Assembly (NCBI RefSeq): GCF_023115425.1
Contig: NZ_CP096032.1
Location: 1,984,001 to 2,048,000 of the forward strand
Length of the DNA: 64,000 nucleotides
Source of the DNA: Synechococcus sp. A10-1-5-1
Lineage (GTDB): Bacteria > Cyanobacteriota > Cyanobacteriia > PCC-6307 > Cyanobiaceae
Direction of reading: 5' to 3'
The translations under genes were made by a program, and so were the position numbers. Below, piece after piece: positions 48,862 through 55,439 of the stretch. The first letter of the stretch is position 1. Every line of letters begins with the position of its first letter. The notes beneath the pieces were generated by a model that worked only from the letters and a program-made list of their open reading frames with translations, did no database searches and had not been told where the DNA came from.

Positions 48862-48887
48862 GGAGCGGTCGCAGGCTTGCGGTGACC

Positions 48888-49328
48888 TCAGCTTGGCGAG
48901 AAGCGCAGCACTTGGCCATGCCTCTCAACGTCCACCCTTTTGACGCAGTGGTGAATGCCATAGCTCACATAGACGTAAAAACGTCCTGGCTCACCAAAGA
49001 GCGTTTCGTTGCTGGGGGAGCGGCGGCGGTAGCCGTGGCAGGCGGGGTCGTCCTGGGAATACGCCTCCGTTTCCACCACCACACCCCAGAGCAGGGTGTC
49101 GCCTGTTTGGCGTTTCACCAACTTGCAGCCAATCAGTTCAGGAGCAACGACCTCCGCTGGACGGCAGAAGAAGGCGTGGGGCAGGGTTTGGGAGAGCGTG
49201 GTGGCTATGGAAGTGGCTGCTTCTCTTCTTTCATTTTTCTGCCACCCAGCGAAGTGCTCTAAGCCCAGTGGCAATGGGGGATTTCCTGGCGAAACTCCCG
49301 CCAGAAGTTGAGCGCGAGCGCAATGCAA
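48888..49328 (-). pseudogene. Truncated 3-methyladenine DNA glycosylase (AAG/MPG type)
   Basis: The middle of the ORF is clearly an alkyladenine glycosylase: [40 protein letters not shown] with the catalytic Glu, [20 protein letters not shown] and IHHCV. At that point the homology stops and an unrelated tail ([17 protein letters not shown]) ends the frame; the usual 70-90 C-terminal residues, including the LLRA and GPG-LA blocks, are missing. The loss sits right next to ald and looks like a deletion. The N terminus before HAFF is also untypical, so the true start is uncertain. Confidence 0.75.
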
Positions 49329-49370
49329 TAGTCCATACGCCTGAGCCTCTCCCTCACTGGTGCAGCTGCT

Positions 49371-50309
49371 TTGGCACTGGCCTCAATGCCTCAGGTGAGC
49401 GCAAAGCCTGCTCAGGTGGCGCAAGGGAGCGCGGAAGACCTTGGAGTGATGAGCATCCGCCTCAAGGATGTGGTGAAACCGCAGGTTGGAGTTCAAGGTC
49501 AAACCCAAGCGGCTGGCACCCCGAATGAGGCAGGCATTGGCGGCTTTATGCCGCTGGTGGTGGGAGAGAACAGCGTGTTCTTTGCTGATGTGCTGGCGAA
49601 TGCGAACTTCGCGGACTGGGGCAACAGCAGCAGCATCGTTAATGCCAAGGTGGCTGGTACCACCATCAGCACGTCATCCAGGCTTGGGTATCGCTGGCTG
49701 AATGGTGATCGCAGTTGGATGTTTGGCGTCAACGGTGGGTATGACACCCGACCGATGGCAACGGGTGATGCCGATACGGGTGTTGCGGTCTCTGGTCAGC
49801 GGACAGTCTTTTTCCAGCAGGCAGCGTTTGGCTTGGAGGCAGTGAATGATGACTGGAGCTTCAATGCCTATGGATTGATCCCAACTGGAACAACGGAATA
49901 CAGGTTGAATAGTGCTTACAACGGAGGAGCACTAGATACGTATGGGTTTGATGCGGGCTACAGCATCACGCCAGAGTGGAAGCTGAGCGTTGGCTATTAC
50001 TACCAGAATGGCGACCTCAATACAGCTGATGGCTCAGGCGTGCTGGGGCGACTGGCTTACAGCATCAATGAGGGAGTAACGGTTGGCACCAATCTGTCTT
50101 ATGACAGCGCGTTTAAGTCACGCTTCTCTGCTGATATTAAGTGGCGTTTTAATACAGCAGGAATTTCACAAAGTGAGAAGCAGAAGAAGGCGTGGGAGAA
50201 GCCTACGATCAAGGCATTAACTGAGACCGCGAAGAATAGGGATGTGCGGGTGAACGACTGTGAGAGCGGTGAATGGTTGGCTCCAAATTTTTTCGCTTGT
50301 TGGGATTAG
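49371..50309 (+). CDS. Outer-membrane beta-barrel protein (inverse-autotransporter-like), 5' end probably broken
   Basis: About 312 residues. After a signal-peptide remnant ([10 protein letters not shown]) come many amphipathic strands: [54 protein letters not shown]. The GGFMPL...FFADV and [12 protein letters not shown] layout resembles the inverse-autotransporter/intimin barrel domain. The frame reads back to ATG 49323 as Met-Gln-stop-Ser-Ile-Arg-Leu, which would be a perfect signal peptide but for TAG at 49329. TTG 49371 is the first usable start in frame and leaves a poor signal. Likely decaying or mis-started; a terminator follows. Confidence 0.7.
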
Positions 50310-50386
50310 AGTAAATTTTTCTAGCTCAATACTCTTTGGTGAGCGCTGTAACGTGCCGCTGAAAGGATAGAGCCTAACCACCCAAA

Positions 50387-50412
50387 GCCCTTGCTAGCGC
50401 AGGGACTTTTTA
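50387..50412 (+). terminator. Terminator of the barrel-protein gene
   Basis: GCCCTTGC, loop TAGC-like, GCAGGG (one bulge) and a T run (CTTTTTATTT), about 80 nt after the stop at 50309. Stem weaker than the others in this window. Confidence 0.65.
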
Positions 50413-50812
50413 TTTCTTTAATCACTTGCTAATCACGCCTAAATGCCATCCAATACCTGGTACCTATATCGTGCCAGCATTTCTTCCATTGATGATTTCT
50501 ATATTAACTAATTCCACTTTAAATATTTAGGCAAAGTAAGCTCAGCCTCTGCATTCAAGATCTCTAATGATATGCTTATCTCCTCAATTTATTCACCGTA
50601 GCAATAGCCGTAAATCACCATCACGGATGCCATTGGCTCGTCTAAATCTCACCGCCACCTGATGCCAGTCTTCTGGAATTTGATTGAGCCGCAAATCAAA
50701 TGCAAACGGTAGTTGCTGCTGCCCTGGCGATACATGCTTTCAATTTCATGTGTTTATGACTATTGTTGCAGTCGTCCGTTTAGCATGATTTTGCAATAGG
50801 GGGTCGCGCCTG
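50413..50812. other. AT-rich gene-poor gap
   Basis: About 400 nt with clearly lower GC than either flank. The only coding-like trace is the minus-strand remnant at 50593-50739. A 22-codon plus-strand frame at 50443-50511 has no ribosome site. No tRNA, inverted terminal repeats or transposase motif is visible. The composition suggests DNA acquired separately from the core chromosome or long under relaxed selection. Confidence 0.5.
50593..50739 (-). pseudogene. Possible C-terminal gene remnant
   Basis: A 48-codon open stretch on the minus strand without a usable start: VSPGQQQLPFAFDLRLNQIP, EDWHQVAVRFRRANGIRDGD, LRLLLR and stop. The composition (paired Arg, Trp-His, regular alternation of hydrophobic and charged residues) looks like the end of a real soluble domain rather than noise, and the frame is closed upstream by TGA at 50740-50742. 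I cannot name the family. Confidence 0.35.
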
Positions 50813-51100
50813 TTGGAGTGTGTTTCTGATTTTGTCAAGCGCTTTAAGCGAAGTCCACTTGTTGTTTGCAGTGAGCTTGATGGTCAAACTGCTCTATTTC
50901 AAAGCAGTACTTGTGACTACTTAGTGCTTAATGAAACCGGCTCTGCGATCTGGGATGCATTGCATTCGCCTATGACGCTCGAGCAGATTTGTGAAAAACT
51001 CTTGGCGGAATATGAAGTCACTCCTGAGCAGTGCCGGATGAGCGTAGAGGAGTGGCTTTCTATCGCGATCGCAAAAGAAATTATTGCTAGCGTTTGGTGA
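50813..51100 (+). CDS. PqqD-like (RiPP recognition element) protein
   Basis: 95 residues from TTG 50813, chosen because AGGGGG lies 9 nt upstream and no ATG/GTG is in frame before the conserved part. The PqqD pattern is clear: a beta strand pair (GQTALFQSSTCDYLVLNETG), then SAIWDALHSPMTLEQICEKL and a winged-helix-like end. PqqD-type domains bind leader peptides for modifying enzymes; the related PqqD class also occurs with HPr-kinase-like kinases in undescribed systems. It is convergent with the GNAT/sulfotransferase/kinase genes, with a 39-nt gap. Confidence 0.8.
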   Translation: MECVSDFVKRFKRSPLVVCSELDGQTALFQSSTCDYLVLNETGSAIWDALHSPMTLEQICEKLLAEYEVTPEQCRMSVEEWLSIAIAKEIIASVW

Positions 51101-51139
51101 TCTAGCGGCAATTATTATTACTAGAGGCGCAGATAAGGC

Positions 51140-51682
51140 CTAGAAGTTGAATGTCGTTCTTAGCTCTATTGCCCATATTTCGCTCTTGGCTTTATTCTGG
51201 CCAATTATCTTGAATCCATGCCGCGCAAAATAGCGCCTCATGGACGCTTGCCGCAAGCCTGGGTTGATATTCTCTGTTAATAAATGTGTTGCTCGATGGT
51301 CTCTGTTTGGGTTGTCGCTTTTAAACTCTCTGAGGAATGTTGTATAGAGCTGATTGCTAAGTCTTGGGGTGCGATGGCTGGGAAGGACGTACATTCTTTG
51401 AAAGTAGGCGTGGCTTCCTAGATGCAGTTCTGGGTCTAGTGTTCGAAGGGCGACAAAAACGACCCCGGTAATCCGGCCAAGTGAATCTCGGGATGTGGTA
51501 GCTGCTTGTATCCTTAATGGTCGAATAATGGATCTTTGATTGATCGTTGAGATGGCCGTTGATTCTTTGAATCTCCTGAGCTCAGATCGGTAGGATTCCC
51601 GATTGGTATCCCAGAACTCCCGAAGTTCTGACTTGAGCTCATCATTAATAGCTCCGAAGATGTAGTCAATGGTGAACGTCAC
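51140..51682 (-). CDS. GNAT-like acyltransferase (putative)
   Basis: 180 residues from GTG 51682, which directly follows the sulfotransferase stop (TAAGTG). A GNAT-type fold is suggested by the strand GRITGVVFVALRTLDPELHL, the following FQRMYVLPSHRTPRLSNQLY that resembles the acetyl-CoA loop (the usual R/Q-x-x-G-x-G/A is replaced by HRTPRLS), and a C-terminal ARHGFKIIGQ. The N-terminal 65 residues are variable. Substrate unknown; lower GC than the core genes. Confidence 0.6.
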   Translation of the reverse strand: MTFTIDYIFGAINDELKSELREFWDTNRESYRSELRRFKESTAISTINQRSIIRPLRIQAATTSRDSLGRITGVVFVALRTLDPELHLGSHAYFQRMYVLPSHRTPRLSNQLYTTFLREFKSDNPNRDHRATHLLTENINPGLRQASMRRYFARHGFKIIGQNKAKSEIWAIELRTTFNF

Positions 51683-52561
51683 TTATTGATTCGTTGGTCC
51701 CGTGTAACCAAAGCGCTTCATGGTCGCCGACAGATTTTCTTCCAATCTTTGGCGCTGCTCAAGAGACAGTTTTTCTGCTCCTTCGCCGCTTCGTCCTGAT
51801 CGAAAGAATCGGTTGCATCCTTTTGGTTTCTCGGCAAAGCCGCCGACCTTTGCTTCGAGTGTCTGGAGTTTCTCTATGGATGTATTGATGATTGTTTGTT
51901 CGATCAGGTTTGAGTCGCTGGGTAAACCAAGAAACTGCGCTAAGTGTGAAAACGTTTCCTGTCCATTGCCGAGCATATCCTCGTATCGGATTGTGAGGAC
52001 TGGGAGGATGGATTGCTCAGCCCAGGACCGTACATGTTGATCCCATCGCCCCATGTGTTGACGGACCTGACGTCCACCATGGCGCATGCTCGGCACAAGT
52101 GCTGCTTCGGAATCGATGAGAAATTCAATGCAACGTTGGATGGGCCACGAGAAGAAGTTGCTGAGTGAAATGGCGACATCTTCGGGGTGCCGTAACAGGT
52201 AAACGACTCCATTGCAGCCTTGGGTGCTCACCACCGGTCTTCCACGCGAATCTGGGGAGTGAAATGCATCGTGAGTCTTGTGGAAGCGTTCACCTTCTGC
52301 GAAAACCCATTGACTTGTGCCGGCGTTGCCTCGGAGGGGATCAAGTTCTCCAAAACTTAAATCACAGGTATTGATTCCGAGTTGGTCATCAAGCCATAGC
52401 CGTGATGAGGCAATGCTGCCTGTGGAAATGTCTTGATTGAGGTGAAGTTCTTCGCGTTCACTCTCTCCCGATAAGCGCCTTAATTCAGTAATGAAGACTC
52501 GACACCATGTGTTCCCGGATTTGGGATAGGAGGCGAGATACCAGTAGCCATCTTTAGTCAT
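51683..52561 (-). CDS. PAPS-dependent sulfotransferase
   Basis: 292 residues. The 5'-phosphosulfate loop is ASYPKSGNTWCRVFI near the N terminus; the 3'-phosphate site is YLLRHPEDVAISLSNFF; VLTIRYEDML and a C-terminal FFRSGRSGEG (a variant of the R-x-G-x-x-G motif) complete the set. GERFHKTHDAFHS places a Lys-x-His near the active site. It transfers sulfate from PAPS to a hydroxyl or amine of an unknown acceptor. Coupled to the kinase gene upstream by an 8-nt overlap and to the GNAT-like gene downstream with no gap. Confidence 0.9.
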   Translation of the reverse strand: MTKDGYWYLASYPKSGNTWCRVFITELRRLSGESEREELHLNQDISTGSIASSRLWLDDQLGINTCDLSFGELDPLRGNAGTSQWVFAEGERFHKTHDAFHSPDSRGRPVVSTQGCNGVVYLLRHPEDVAISLSNFFSWPIQRCIEFLIDSEAALVPSMRHGGRQVRQHMGRWDQHVRSWAEQSILPVLTIRYEDMLGNGQETFSHLAQFLGLPSDSNLIEQTIINTSIEKLQTLEAKVGGFAEKPKGCNRFFRSGRSGEGAEKLSLEQRQRLEENLSATMKRFGYTGPTNQ

Positions 52562-53549
52562 TGAAAGACTCCTGCTCGCTTGGTTCTGGCTTTGAGGGGG
52601 AAGCTGGGTTGAGTAAATCCATTTGCTTCAGACCCTCTGACATGGCCTGTATGTCATCCGGTAGGTGTAACCGATGGACAGGAGTCGAGCGAACACAGCC
52701 TGTCGCCTGCATAAAGAGTCGTGCTTCGGTGTTCATGCCCCGATAAAACCTGGCATGGAAAGCCTGGTTGCGCAACGCAAGTAGACCGCTTTGCTGATTT
52801 AGTGCTTCGCTGACTTTGATCTTGCCTGAGAGTGTGTCGTTGTTGTCTGCATCTCCGTTCGTTGAGCGATTTAAGATGTAAATCGCGGAGAGTGGTGTTG
52901 GGGCTGTCGCCAACGATTGTGATGCTGGGGTAATGCGGTAGCGTTTCAAGCCTCGCCGGACGAGAGGTAGGTTTACTGCTTCGATCCCGAGTTTTTGAGT
53001 TGCATCATGCCAAAGCTTGATGTGCTGTGGTCCTAAGGGGATTGTTCGGTCTGCCTTAATCACTGTCACTTCGCTGCTGATCAGCCTCCAGCCTTGCTGC
53101 AAAAGGCACCATGCAAGGGTCGATTTCCCGGTTGTTGGGTGGCCAAGTAATGCAATCGCGCGTCCATCGCGCTCTAAGGCTGTCCCATGCACAACCAGCT
53201 CGCCGCGCTGAATCGCTAATGCCCCAAGCCCACTTGTTACAAGAAAGGTGCGAATGTCTCGATCGCTGACGCTGTCGTTCCAGCGCTCCCATTCCAAAAT
53301 CTGCCCGTTCGTTGCCCTGAACCAGCCAATCCCCTCTAGCTCGAGTCGCCATTCTTGGGGCACCATCGTGATGCAAGGAGTGCTGTGTTGGTTGGGATCC
53401 AACAACAAGGGCCACGCAGTGTGATTAGTGTTTCTAAGTTCTATGTTCTCAATCTCCGGAGTTTCTTCGTTGATCTCGGTGAGGTCTGGCAGGGCTATAT
53501 CGCTCTTAAGTGTCATCCCATATGCTGAATATCTGTGGGTTTGATTCAT
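52554..53549 (-). CDS. HPr-kinase-like (HprK-related) kinase
   Basis: 331 residues. The N-terminal domain starts RYSAYGMTLKSDIALPDL, a pattern I associate with HprK-like kinases of natural-product clusters. The C-terminal domain has ELVVHGTALERDGRAIALLG, Walker A GHPTTGKSTLAW, then WRLISSEVTVI where the family usually has LLSDDV, and later a TP-rich YILNR strand. HprK-type enzymes phosphorylate a Ser or other hydroxyl in a protein, peptide or small molecule. First gene of the three-gene minus-strand operon; 207 nt after nadE. Confidence 0.8.
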   Translation of the reverse strand: MNQTHRYSAYGMTLKSDIALPDLTEINEETPEIENIELRNTNHTAWPLLLDPNQHSTPCITMVPQEWRLELEGIGWFRATNGQILEWERWNDSVSDRDIRTFLVTSGLGALAIQRGELVVHGTALERDGRAIALLGHPTTGKSTLAWCLLQQGWRLISSEVTVIKADRTIPLGPQHIKLWHDATQKLGIEAVNLPLVRRGLKRYRITPASQSLATAPTPLSAIYILNRSTNGDADNNDTLSGKIKVSEALNQQSGLLALRNQAFHARFYRGMNTEARLFMQATGCVRSTPVHRLHLPDDIQAMSEGLKQMDLLNPASPSKPEPSEQESFND

Positions 53550-53569
53550 TTTGTGTGACGTTTCTGCGT

Positions 53570-53592
53570 TTCCGCGCTTGCGGAATTGTCAA
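53570..53592 (-). promoter_or_regulatory. Putative promoter with overlapping operator for the kinase/sulfotransferase operon
   Basis: On the minus strand, TTGACA (53592-53587) is an exact -35 consensus, followed after one base by the perfect inverted repeat TTCCGC-AAGC-GCGGAA (53585-53570), 21 nt before the kinase start codon. The expected -10 position is poor (ACGCAG-like), so activation or a different start is possible. The arrangement fits an operator overlapping a promoter. The rest of the 53550-53756 gap shows nothing further. Confidence 0.35.
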
Positions 53593-53756
53593 GGCCGAAA
53601 TGAATGACTTGTATTCGTGAACAGTAGGGGTCTGGGCCAGATCTCACGGGGCTGATTGCTGGCTTCACATGCTTTTTAACCCTTGACGTCCGTCGTCTTC
53701 AGCTCCTGACCAGGGCAATGTCCTCTGCTTCCGGTCTCAACACCACAGTTAGATGC

Positions 53757-55439
53757 TCACCCCTTTGACGCGATTGGCATTCGCCAACCGCTCCCGAAGG
53801 CCCGTTGGCTGAGTTTCAAAACCGGTGGTGCCTGCCTCCGCTTGAATTCTGCGCGGCGCAGTAAACCCATGACCCGCATAGCGAGAGCAGGATCCGCGCC
53901 CTGTTGGCTGAGCTCTTCAGGGCTTTGGTGCTCCTCCAGCAGAGCCTTGAGTAGTGGATCCAGCACGGCGTAATCCGGTAGCGAATCGCTGTCCTTTTGA
54001 TCGGGGCGCAACTCGGCGCTGGGCGGTTTCTCGCGAATCGCCGCTCCAATCAGTTCCCCTTGTGCCGGCAGTCCCAGCTCCTGGCGCACCGCCTGGGCGG
54101 CCTCGGAATCGATCCAGTTGCAGAGATGAAACACGGTTGATTTGTAGAGGTCGCCGATCACGGCGAGCCCCCCATTCATGTCGCCGTAGAGGGTGCAGTA
54201 GCCCACGGCCAGCTCGCTCTTGTTGCCCGTGGTCAGCAGCAGTTGCCCCTGTTGATTCGCCACCGCCATCAGCAGCGTGCCCCGGATGCGCGATTGCAGG
54301 TTTTCCGCTGTCACGCCCGCTGGCGTTCCCCCCAAGGGATCGCTCAAGGCGGCATCAAACCCCCCCATCAATCCCTCGATCGGCACCGTCTGGGTGTTGA
54401 TGCCCAGCCGCTTGGCGAGGTCCAGGGAGTCGTTGATCGATCCCTCGGAACTCCAGGGGGAGGGCATCAGTAGAGCCTGCACTTGTTCTCCGCCGAGGGC
54501 CGCCGCCGCCAGGACAGCCACCAGGGCGGAATCGATGCCGCCGCTCAGGCCCAAGAGGGCTTTGCCAAAGCCGCATTTGCGCGCGTAATCCCGCACCCCC
54601 AGCACCAGGGCCCGCAGCAGCAGTTCTTCGTTAGGGGGGATCTCCGTCTCGCCAGCGGCGGCGCCGACTGTCCAGGAGGCCAGATCCGCTGCGCCGAAGG
54701 CCAGCTGGCAGCCCACCACTCCGTTTGCGGTGGTGACGAAGCTTCCGCCATCGAAGATCAGCTCGTCATTGCCTCCCACCTGGTTGACGTAGATCACAGG
54801 AGCGCTCAAGCGCTGGGCGGCGCTCTTGGCCAGCTCCCGGCGCAGCTGGGGTTTGCCTTGGCCGAAGGGGGAGGCCGAGAGGTTGATCAGCAGGTCCGGG
54901 CGCAGGGCCGCCAAGTCCCCGACGGGATCACCCCCCAGGAGCCGTTGGTTGTGCAGCTGTTCTTCGACCCAGAGGTCCTCGCAGATGGTCAGGCCCAGGC
55001 GCCAGCGGCGGCCGCCCCGTTCCAGCTCCAGCAGGCAGGCTTCCTCGGCAGGGCGGAAGTAGCGCCGTTCATCGAAGACGTCGTAGCTGGGCAGCAGCCG
55101 TTTGCGGGCCACGATCCGCCAGGAGCCCCCTTCCACCAGGGCCACGCTGTTGAACAGATCGGGCTGCTGGCCATCGCGGACCGTTTCACTGACCCCCAGG
55201 AGCAGTGCCTGCTTAGCCGGGAGATCGCGGGCGAGGTCATCGAGCACGTCGTCCTGCCGTTGCCGCAGGGATGGCCGCAGCAGCAGGTCCCGCGGGGGAT
55301 AGCCCCAAAGCGCCAGCTCCGGCGCGACCACCAGATCGGCTCCGCCCTCAGCGGCGCCGCGGCAGGCCTCCAGCAGTTGGGCGCCATTGCCGCTCAGGTC
55401 CCCCACCAAGGGATTGATCTGGGCCAGGGCGATGCGCAT
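53757..55439 (-). CDS. nadE: Glutamine-dependent NAD+ synthetase
   Basis: 560 residues: N-terminal nitrilase-like glutaminase (Glu in VVAPELALWGYPPRD, Lys in RKRLLPSYDVFDERRYF, Cys in GLTICEDLW) and C-terminal synthetase with the ATP-pyrophosphatase loop LLGLSGGIDSALVAVLA, TTGNKSELAVGYCTLYGDMN and GLAVIGDLYKSTVF. It makes NAD+ from deamido-NAD+. The start shares a base with the nadD stop (TAATG read on the minus strand). Confidence 0.97.
   Translation of the reverse strand: MRIALAQINPLVGDLSGNGAQLLEACRGAAEGGADLVVAPELALWGYPPRDLLLRPSLRQRQDDVLDDLARDLPAKQALLLGVSETVRDGQQPDLFNSVALVEGGSWRIVARKRLLPSYDVFDERRYFRPAEEACLLELERGGRRWRLGLTICEDLWVEEQLHNQRLLGGDPVGDLAALRPDLLINLSASPFGQGKPQLRRELAKSAAQRLSAPVIYVNQVGGNDELIFDGGSFVTTANGVVGCQLAFGAADLASWTVGAAAGETEIPPNEELLLRALVLGVRDYARKCGFGKALLGLSGGIDSALVAVLAAAALGGEQVQALLMPSPWSSEGSINDSLDLAKRLGINTQTVPIEGLMGGFDAALSDPLGGTPAGVTAENLQSRIRGTLLMAVANQQGQLLLTTGNKSELAVGYCTLYGDMNGGLAVIGDLYKSTVFHLCNWIDSEAAQAVRQELGLPAQGELIGAAIREKPPSAELRPDQKDSDSLPDYAVLDPLLKALLEEHQSPEELSQQGADPALAMRVMGLLRRAEFKRRQAPPVLKLSQRAFGSGWRMPIASKG

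Follow-up and report, generated by a model that had tools for sequence, protein, structure and literature searches.

Which substrate is served by a cluster of putative tailoring genes that has no short precursor peptide beside it? This question is raised by a 64,000-nucleotide stretch of the genome of Synechococcus sp. A10-1-5-1 (NZ_CP096032.1, positions 1,984,001 to 2,048,000; hereafter the window), in which genes for a PqqD-family protein, a GNAT-fold protein, a 3'-phosphoadenosine-5'-phosphosulfate (PAPS)-type sulfotransferase and an HprK-like protein lie side by side. An initial annotation placed these four open reading frames (ORFs) correctly and reported 'no visible precursor peptide'; its span, however, ended one gene short. 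The adjoining gene, here called BAR, codes for an inverse-autotransporter-like barrel with a C-terminal tail, and carries a lasso-type WxxP motif followed by a variable core. We consider it probable that a lasso-peptide tailoring set, made up of a ribosomally synthesised and post-translationally modified peptide (RiPP) recognition element (RRE), an HprK-like kinase and a sulfotransferase, together with a GNAT, was redirected and now acts on autotransporter passengers ahead of their export.

The four genes are conserved as a unit

We queried 300 genomes from the same family as the window with the HprK-like protein, and compared the gene content of 12-20 kb stretches around the matches. HprK matched in 27 of the 300 genomes. 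The genes for HprK, sulfotransferase and GNAT, kept in this order and orientation and with PqqD convergent to them, made up a complete set at 17 loci, spread over 15 genomes (G000, which contains the window, G029, G044, G051, G081, G089, G120, G123, G156, G169, G186, G260 and G277, with two loci each in G075 and G295), and a further copy in G105 is cut by a contig end. Since the same order and orientation recur at 17 loci in 15 genomes, the set is not a chance grouping; the co-occurrence that the initial annotation proposed to look for in other cyanobacteria is thus present, as is the convergent arrangement that it described. Across loci, identity to the window proteins was 46-53% for HprK, 68-75% for the sulfotransferase, 36-52% for GNAT and 48-63% for PqqD. 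Named carriers (eight loci) are Synechococcus sp. UW105, AG-679-A04, CPC35, UW140 and Cruz CV12-2-Slac-r, and further S. lacustris, Prochlorococcus sp. AG-412-I05 and Cyanobium sp. Morenito 9A2.

A GNAT profile matched in 17 of the 300 family genomes (the match in G098 being a fragment), all 17 of them BAR-positive, and in 6 of 292 phylum-wide genomes, all six of which fall within the window's family and were already in the first set. BAR was present in the stretch at 15 of the 17 cassette loci, at three of them as a fragment, and the other two stretches end at a contig edge on that side. Beyond BAR and a transposase, clustered gene families occurred in at most five of the 17 cassette stretches, in which the other families were not all annotated. 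Five weaker HprK loci (L054-L058), in which neither BAR nor another cassette gene was seen, were set aside. PADLOC assigned none of the five proteins (0/5) to a defence family, and a tblastn search with the window GNAT found no match in a phage collection. The cassette is duplicated in G075 (L033:9538-17131), where each copy is followed by its own BAR and the HprK of the second copy is truncated; the second, divergent cassette of G295 (L046) has two GNATs.

BAR resembles an inverse autotransporter and carries a lasso-type motif

BAR (49323..50309, + strand) is the ORF just before PqqD. Its residues are numbered here from the TTG at 49371, and its structural model covers the open part from that position. 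The model, built from 56 aligned sequences (predicted local distance difference test score, pLDDT, 80; predicted template-modelling score, pTM, 0.77), has 12 strands, followed by two short helices over the WxxP segment and then by a low-confidence tail. In a Foldseek search of the PDB the top three matches were intimin/invasin β-domains (1-4e-9; next match 1.8e-6). VIA-align gave these domains Z scores of 22.2-22.4 at a root-mean-square deviation (rmsd) of 2.8-3.1 over 222-225 aligned residues (4e1s: Z 22.4, rmsd 3.1, 225 aligned), against Z 17.7 for the next family. Among the 50 entries listed, the alignment reached residue 297, in the linker, only in those three and in one BamA model at rank 50. 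Because the alignments run through the linker to this residue, the WxxP motif would occupy the position of the intimin linker and the tail that of the passenger. On its modelled 12-strand, intimin-like fold, BAR is predicted to be an inverse autotransporter (type Ve). The Pfam family IAT_beta stayed under its cutoff of 22.3 bits in the copies at L033 (14.6 bits) and L035 (12.4), and was not listed for the window copy or that at L042. A putative signal peptide was identified by eye.

The motif itself, KKAWEKPTI (50184..50210, +), lies in the linker after the last strand and has the form KxxWxxPx[L/I] (K272-x-x-W275-x-x-P278-x-I280) as defined in PMC13381572. According to PMC13381572, discrete RREs bind the leaders of lasso peptides and of linear polyphosphorylated peptides (LPP) through [Y/W]xxPx[L/V/I/F/A], the leader PbaA has a Lys three residues before the Trp, and the WxxP form is favoured by paeninodin-type RREs. 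The motif is followed by a conserved pre-core (50211..50258, +), which contains a Lys two residues before an invariant Arg, and by a hypervariable core of 16 residues (50259..50306, +). Downstream lies a terminator-like 3' hairpin with a T-run (50380..50420, +), which an alignment of three copies showed to be shared despite different cores. A conserved short ORF beside the cassette, another check suggested in the initial annotation, did not emerge: a regular-expression scan of ORFs of up to 130 residues for [Y/W/F]xxP precursors returned many chance-looking candidates and, at the cassette loci, nothing convincing except pieces of BAR.

BAR copies with the motif are associated with the cassette

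The BAR family is dispersed and multi-copy, with matches in 66 of the 300 genomes and several copies in many of them. The association of motif and cassette was assessed on 105 BAR copies with readable C-termini from 39 genomes. A WxxP BAR was found in 15 of 15 cassette genomes versus 2 of 24 others (G253 and G289; Fisher p = 5.4e-9), and when cassette labels were shuffled within genus the observed count was reached in 0 of 20000 trials. Counted per copy, the motif was present in 43 of 58 BARs from cassette genomes versus 2 of 47 from the rest, and in cassette-less genomes its place is taken by QQLP, VVMP or similar. At two further named loci outside the test, both BARs beside the cassette have WxxP (2/2). 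A PqqD profile matched in none of 12 BAR-positive cassette-less genomes and in five of five control genomes.

These counts are to be read with the make-up of the sample in mind. The BAR search query was itself W-type, so W-type copies should rank high, and for several genomes only some of the BAR copies were covered. Forty-six BAR-like segments, mostly fragments, had no regular-expression anchor and were dropped; by eye, those from the cassette-less genomes G034, G024, G009 and G021, one G225 copy, and one copy each from the cassette genomes G260 and G000 were non-W, and one from the cassette genome G295 was W. The non-W rows that were counted include a false anchor, on a fragment in G120 (L031), which leaves the genome table unaffected. 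The cassette genome G044 had no readable BAR and stands outside the table, and G105 was scored as a cassette genome on GNAT, PqqD and the sulfotransferase cut by the contig end.

The cassette proteins are related to lasso-peptide tailoring enzymes

The PqqD-family gene (50813..51100, +) begins with TTG, and its product matches PF05402 at 3.1e-15; the best NCBIfam match, lasso_PqqD_Bac (9.3e-15), scores 54.6 bits, below its cutoff of 80. A profile made from alignment A2 found PbaB1 as its best match in the PDB (9x90_B, 2.6e-11), followed by TbiB1, LppB and TfuB1. PbaB1 is a WxxP-binding lasso RRE (PMC13381572). When we mapped its pocket, in that paper's PbaB1 numbering, onto the window protein, residues L39, I46, L63, Y67, V69, W81 and I90 of PqqD corresponded to L41, I48, L65, Y69, V71, F83 and L92 of PbaB1, all seven being identical or conservatively changed. 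By its relatedness to solved lasso RREs and its conserved WxxP pocket, PqqD is thus a predicted lasso-type RRE, and its putative recognition of the BAR motif is well supported by sequence.

The sulfotransferase gene (51683..52561, -) encodes a Sulfotransfer_1 domain (PF00685, 2.1e-16; 60.6 bits versus a cutoff of 22), with TEG12/TEG14 as best PDB matches. Its motifs ASYPKSGNTW and RHPEDVAISLSNF include the PAPS loops (YPKSGNTW and RHPEDVAISLSNF), and domain and loops together identify it as a predicted PAPS sulfotransferase. The GNAT gene (51140..51682, -; GTG start) codes for a protein with little sequence support (PF13508 at 0.0094, below its cutoff) that is clear by fold: its model (pLDDT 85) matches GNAT structures at E 3.6e-6, with a best Z of 11.2 and an rmsd of 3.6 over 147 aligned residues, which points to a GNAT fold. 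The HprK-like protein (52554..53549, -) has a P-loop, as do all 22 aligned proteins of alignment A3, from which the L031 and L036 kinases are absent; its DD pair is replaced by SE, so that the cassette protein lacks the combination of P-loop and DD pair of an HPr kinase/phosphorylase. It matches TIGR04352 at 4.7e-13, and the families match around the P-loop only. The initial annotation had linked the pair to the HprK-rel-A/PqqD system of TIGRFAMs (TIGR04352/04353, the latter being PqqD_rel_X), an assignment that the scores do not support (48.9 versus 200 bits and 25.4 versus 35 bits). Nor do the scores indicate a SynChlorMet cassette (ScmC 20.9 versus 125 bits, ScmD 27.9 versus 100 bits).

Seven more distant HprK loci from the same bacterial family (L047-L053) resemble lasso clusters or parts of them. 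They include a sulfotransferase (6/7), a B2-like protease (5/7) and an Asn-synthase-like cyclase (4/7), some with a nucleoside triphosphate (NTP) transferase, an ABC exporter or a glycosyltransferase as well. The B2 of L049 passes NCBIfam lasso_biosyn_B2 (34.8 versus 33 bits), and the cyclase-like protein of that locus scores below the lasso cyclase cutoff (42.7 versus 525 bits). A short ORF with basic residues and WxxPx[I/L/F], such as EKLEWVTPKISLMEAGET, was found in six of the seven loci, and seven of eight such ORFs end in Ser, the residue that the paeninodin kinase targets at the C-terminus (PMC9266682). The eight were chosen by eye from position and motif (those of L047-L049 also as BLAST family F21), and a scan for K/R..[Y/W]xxP gave chance ORFs too. 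Examples are L047:2925-3083, L048:12701-12934 and L049:8158-8352; there are three in L047. Among the papers that our literature searches listed, none was a report of the L047-L053 clusters. The nearest enzyme relatives found outside the cassette lie in lasso-like clusters beside short WxxP precursors. Families of the B2-like protease (F11) and the cyclase (F18) were found in 0 of the 17 cassette stretches (13-20 kb, the part of these genomes searched), versus 5/7 and 4/7 in the lasso-like loci. In place of the short [Y/W]xxPx[L/I] precursor of a lasso cluster, the cassette has the motif inside a barrel protein of more than 300 residues. The window cassette therefore has the appearance of a former lasso tailoring set. 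In the proposed direction of change, protease and cyclase would have been lost, a GNAT added, the kinase site altered and a new substrate taken on. For kinase and GNAT there are lasso precedents by experiment, and for the sulfotransferase as a gene in clusters (PMC9266682, PMC8498205). The initial annotation gave the GNAT no role; lysine acetylation by a GNAT is a known lasso tailoring step, in albusnodin (PMC8498205).

BAR tails are hypervariable

Over 3160 pairs from 80 copies (of the 81 rows of the tree), the median identity was 0.71 for barrels and 0.26 for cores, compared with 0.25 for cores of shuffled partners (600 pairs), and unrelated tails occur on barrels that are identical in the compared region. 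Tail length ranges from 3 to 96 residues. On a tree of the 81 barrels, with the tail left out, the W/non-W state requires 12 changes, gains or losses of W, at least seven of them being forced by starred branches. Two of the 16 residues of the window core distinguish it from a core in G289 that sits on another barrel (66% identity over the whole proteins); the DNA that the two share continues through the 3' terminator-like hairpin, which is also found in a paralogue with a different core.

Two or more Cys are present in 38 of 45 W-type (WxxP) tails; 42 of 45 have the Lys two residues ahead of the invariant Arg, as against 1 of 57 non-W tails (57 of 60 non-W rows were used). This Lys was considered as the GNAT target on the strength of its covariation with the Trp (7 starred pairs, median p 0.03, adjacent sites) and rejected, since Lys travels with W as one module and the covariation is not independent evidence. 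Variability itself is a property of the BAR family. Hypervariable BAR tails, with no WxxP and no PqqD match in the genome, were seen in G092, G101, G222, G225, G064 and other cassette-less genomes.

BAR and the cassette lie on one insertion

In four of four same-genus genomes without the cassette, the ends of ald and nadE lie 32-88 bp apart, whereas in the window they are separated by 4.9 kb. The sequences of these four genomes match the window up to 48863 (48898 in two) and from 53769-53770. BAR and the cassette thus form one insertion (48864..53768), the site of which is empty in same-genus cassette-less genomes. As the initial annotation had noticed, the cassette DNA is poorer in GC (0.497 versus 0.629 for the whole window): in 1-kb windows the GC content is 0.45-0.53 at 50.0-53.5 kb versus 0.60-0.71 at 47.0-49.5 kb and past 54 kb, and the cassette was lower in GC than its locus in all 12 loci compared. 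An ORF inside the insertion (48888-49328, -) matches methylpurine-DNA glycosylase (PF02245, 3.5e-26) over model positions 2-78 of 181 only.

Between PqqD and BAR lies the remnant of a Y1/IS200-like (RAYT-type) transposase (50614..50733, -), which is 87% identical to L059:8615-8734 and whose place several of the other cassette loci fill with longer transposase copies (the L033 copy matches PF01797 at 4.9e-14). This ORF (F6) had been considered as a fifth cassette gene and was rejected as a transposase of the PF01797 type; 5 of the 17 cassette loci (L035, L037, L042, L044 and L046) gave no tblastn match to it. Transposases of this type lie within about 1 kb of the BAR 3' end at L033, L036, L040, L041, L113, L114, L147 and others, with or without a cassette, and most BAR loci away from the cassette have none. 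That the F6 transposase might act in tail exchange is only a guess.

Comparison with known systems

With the inverse autotransporters intimin and invasin (type Ve), BAR would share the 12-strand barrel, the linker and a C-terminal passenger (model Z 22). Intimin and invasin passengers consist of Ig-like repeats, whereas that of BAR would be a hypervariable tail of 3-96 residues, on a barrel that Pfam IAT_beta scores below cutoff. Like the LPP systems, the cassette system has an RRE and an HprK-like kinase, a [Y/W]xxP motif, variable C-termini and no cyclase; unlike them, it has an autotransporter, a sulfotransferase and a GNAT. LPP clusters also have an SpI-like peptidase and an NTP transferase; the NTP_transf_5 family (F5) was not found in the cassette stretches, in which no search for an SpI-like peptidase was made.

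Paeninodin-type lasso clusters contain a B1 RRE and the HprK-like PadeK, in some Firmicutes with sulfotransferase and nucleotidyltransferase genes, and have in common with the cassette a PqqD/B1 RRE, an HprK-like gene, a sulfotransferase gene and KxxWxxPx[L/I] (PMC13381572, PMC9266682, PMC8498205). In contrast to these clusters, the cassette has no B2 protease, cyclase or short precursor visible beside it, the BAR motif comes some 270 residues along a β-barrel protein, the kinase has SE in place of DD, and there is no conserved C-terminal Ser. The albusnodin lasso pathway includes a GNAT-family tailoring step on lysine (PMC8498205), on another substrate and in another cluster; the two GNATs are likened by family. 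Among the papers listed in searches largely limited to the open-access literature, none was seen to join an RRE or a RiPP with an autotransporter, and the available text of PMC10783134 contains no mention of 'lasso' or 'PqqD'.

Weighing the alternatives

Several findings weigh against a retargeted tailoring set. Five PbaB1 pocket residues are altered in PqqD (Y39->L37, I44->T42, E75->Q73, Q79->S77 and L87->A85). The acetyl-CoA loop motif of GNATs is Q/RxxGxG/A; by eye, the cassette GNAT appears to have no canonical loop of this kind, its place being taken by R-x-x-R-L-[AS] in most rows of alignment A1. The kinase pair is SE in 15 of 15 barrel-linked proteins, as opposed to DD in 7 of 7 from lasso-like loci, and with this pair lost, it is possible that the cassette kinase does not phosphorylate. 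A conserved C-terminal Ser is missing from BAR cores, and the BAR motif is distant from the N-terminus, unlike the leaders described in the papers cited here. Hypervariable tails also occur in cassette-less genomes, so variability cannot be put down to the cassette. In cassette genomes, 15 of the 58 counted BAR copies (one of them the false anchor) are not WxxP; conversely, WxxP BARs occur without any HprK, GNAT or PqqD match in the genome (G289:C49:102773 and G253:C1:2073864), where recent cassette loss or tail import is possible. When cassette and W were compared over independent pairs of the barrel gene tree, 6 starred pairs were obtained, on average 2.9 the same way and 1.0 the other (median p 0.63), and linkage together with copying inside genomes could be spreading WxxP BARs along with the cassette. 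The window BAR also has an in-frame TAG at codon 3 (49329-49331), which makes an intact WxxP paralogue in the same genome (G000:C1:857835; 97% identical over residues 1-297, tail TTWCNTPGGEPGILVTTPGDGKSVCVTITP) more likely to be the working substrate here; this genome has four BARs and one fragment, and a stop likewise breaks the copy at 426904. Binding and modification of BAR tails are, moreover, predictions.

Three other explanations were weighed against these data. The BAR tail could be a precursor freed by proteolysis, with BAR as an oversized leader or exporter and a free modified peptide, like a lasso peptide or an LPP, as product. The Cys-containing W-type tails would fit this, and yet in barrel and linker BAR matches inverse autotransporters, whose passenger stays attached; the B2-like, cyclase-like and ABC-exporter (F7) families were found in none of the 17 cassette stretches, in which a signal-peptidase-like gene was not searched for. 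LPP precursors, too, combine a conserved part with variable C-termini (PMC13381572), and a released peptide nevertheless strikes us as unlikely. We hold it to be more improbable still that the cassette enzymes act on a glycan or another small molecule, with WxxP BARs hitchhiking on the cassette. BAR and cassette do share one insertion, as hitchhiking would have it; a PqqD-type RRE, however, is a peptide-binding domain, and WxxP is found on scattered BAR copies remote from the cassette, in several barrel backgrounds, and rarely without a cassette. Sulfotransferases and GNATs often act on non-peptides; besides BAR and the transposase, none of the clustered gene families occurred in more than five of the 17 stretches, and nothing was found in support of a glycan, for which no direct test was made. 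There is similarly little to recommend a decayed, non-catalytic relic, in which SE kinase and GNAT would do no more than bind while drift is eliminating the set. The loss of DD, the patchy HprK distribution and the stop in the window BAR would agree with decay, but four genes have stayed open in identical order at 17 loci with the identities given above, the P-loop is kept throughout the alignment, and the window sulfotransferase has its PAPS-loop motifs.

A proposed model for the tailoring of displayed tails

Conservation of the genes, the barrel fold, the motif and its association with the cassette, the relatedness to lasso systems, the hypervariability and the insertion are established by computation. 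In the retargeted tailoring set that we favour, the cassette would no longer make a free lasso peptide, because B2-like protease and cyclase are absent beside it. PqqD would bind KxxWxxPx[I/L] in the linker of dispersed BARs while these are unfolded in the cytoplasm, which would supply ATP, PAPS and acyl-CoA for tailoring, and would present the conserved segment and the hypervariable tail to its partner enzymes. Sec and the β-barrel assembly machinery (BAM) would then export BAR, the barrel would thread the modified tail to the cell surface, and the tail would remain there as a diversified, chemically marked display. RRE-BAR binding, the residues modified and their chemistry, the timing, the surface exposure and the biological role are thus what the model would predict. 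The suggestion in the initial annotation that a ribosomally made peptide is the target of PqqD, kinase and sulfotransferase is supported; the co-occurrence of the genes, which it had set as a test, also speaks for it.

With rather less assurance, we lean towards a RiPP-like, RRE-guided tailoring of self-displayed autotransporter passengers. A single cassette would act in trans on recombining, near-random, mostly Cys-containing tails and yield a diversified, chemically coded surface, for example against phage or grazers or in kin recognition; a link between the tails and phage is possible. If this is true, RRE use would extend beyond small released peptides to the tailoring of the tail of a large exported membrane protein, and a function would be explained for an orphan PqqD/HprK/sulfotransferase/GNAT set. 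It would also provide a naturally occurring display system, with a short WxxP tag as a possible means of directing tails to tailoring enzymes, and some picocyanobacteria would gain a diversified, marked surface.

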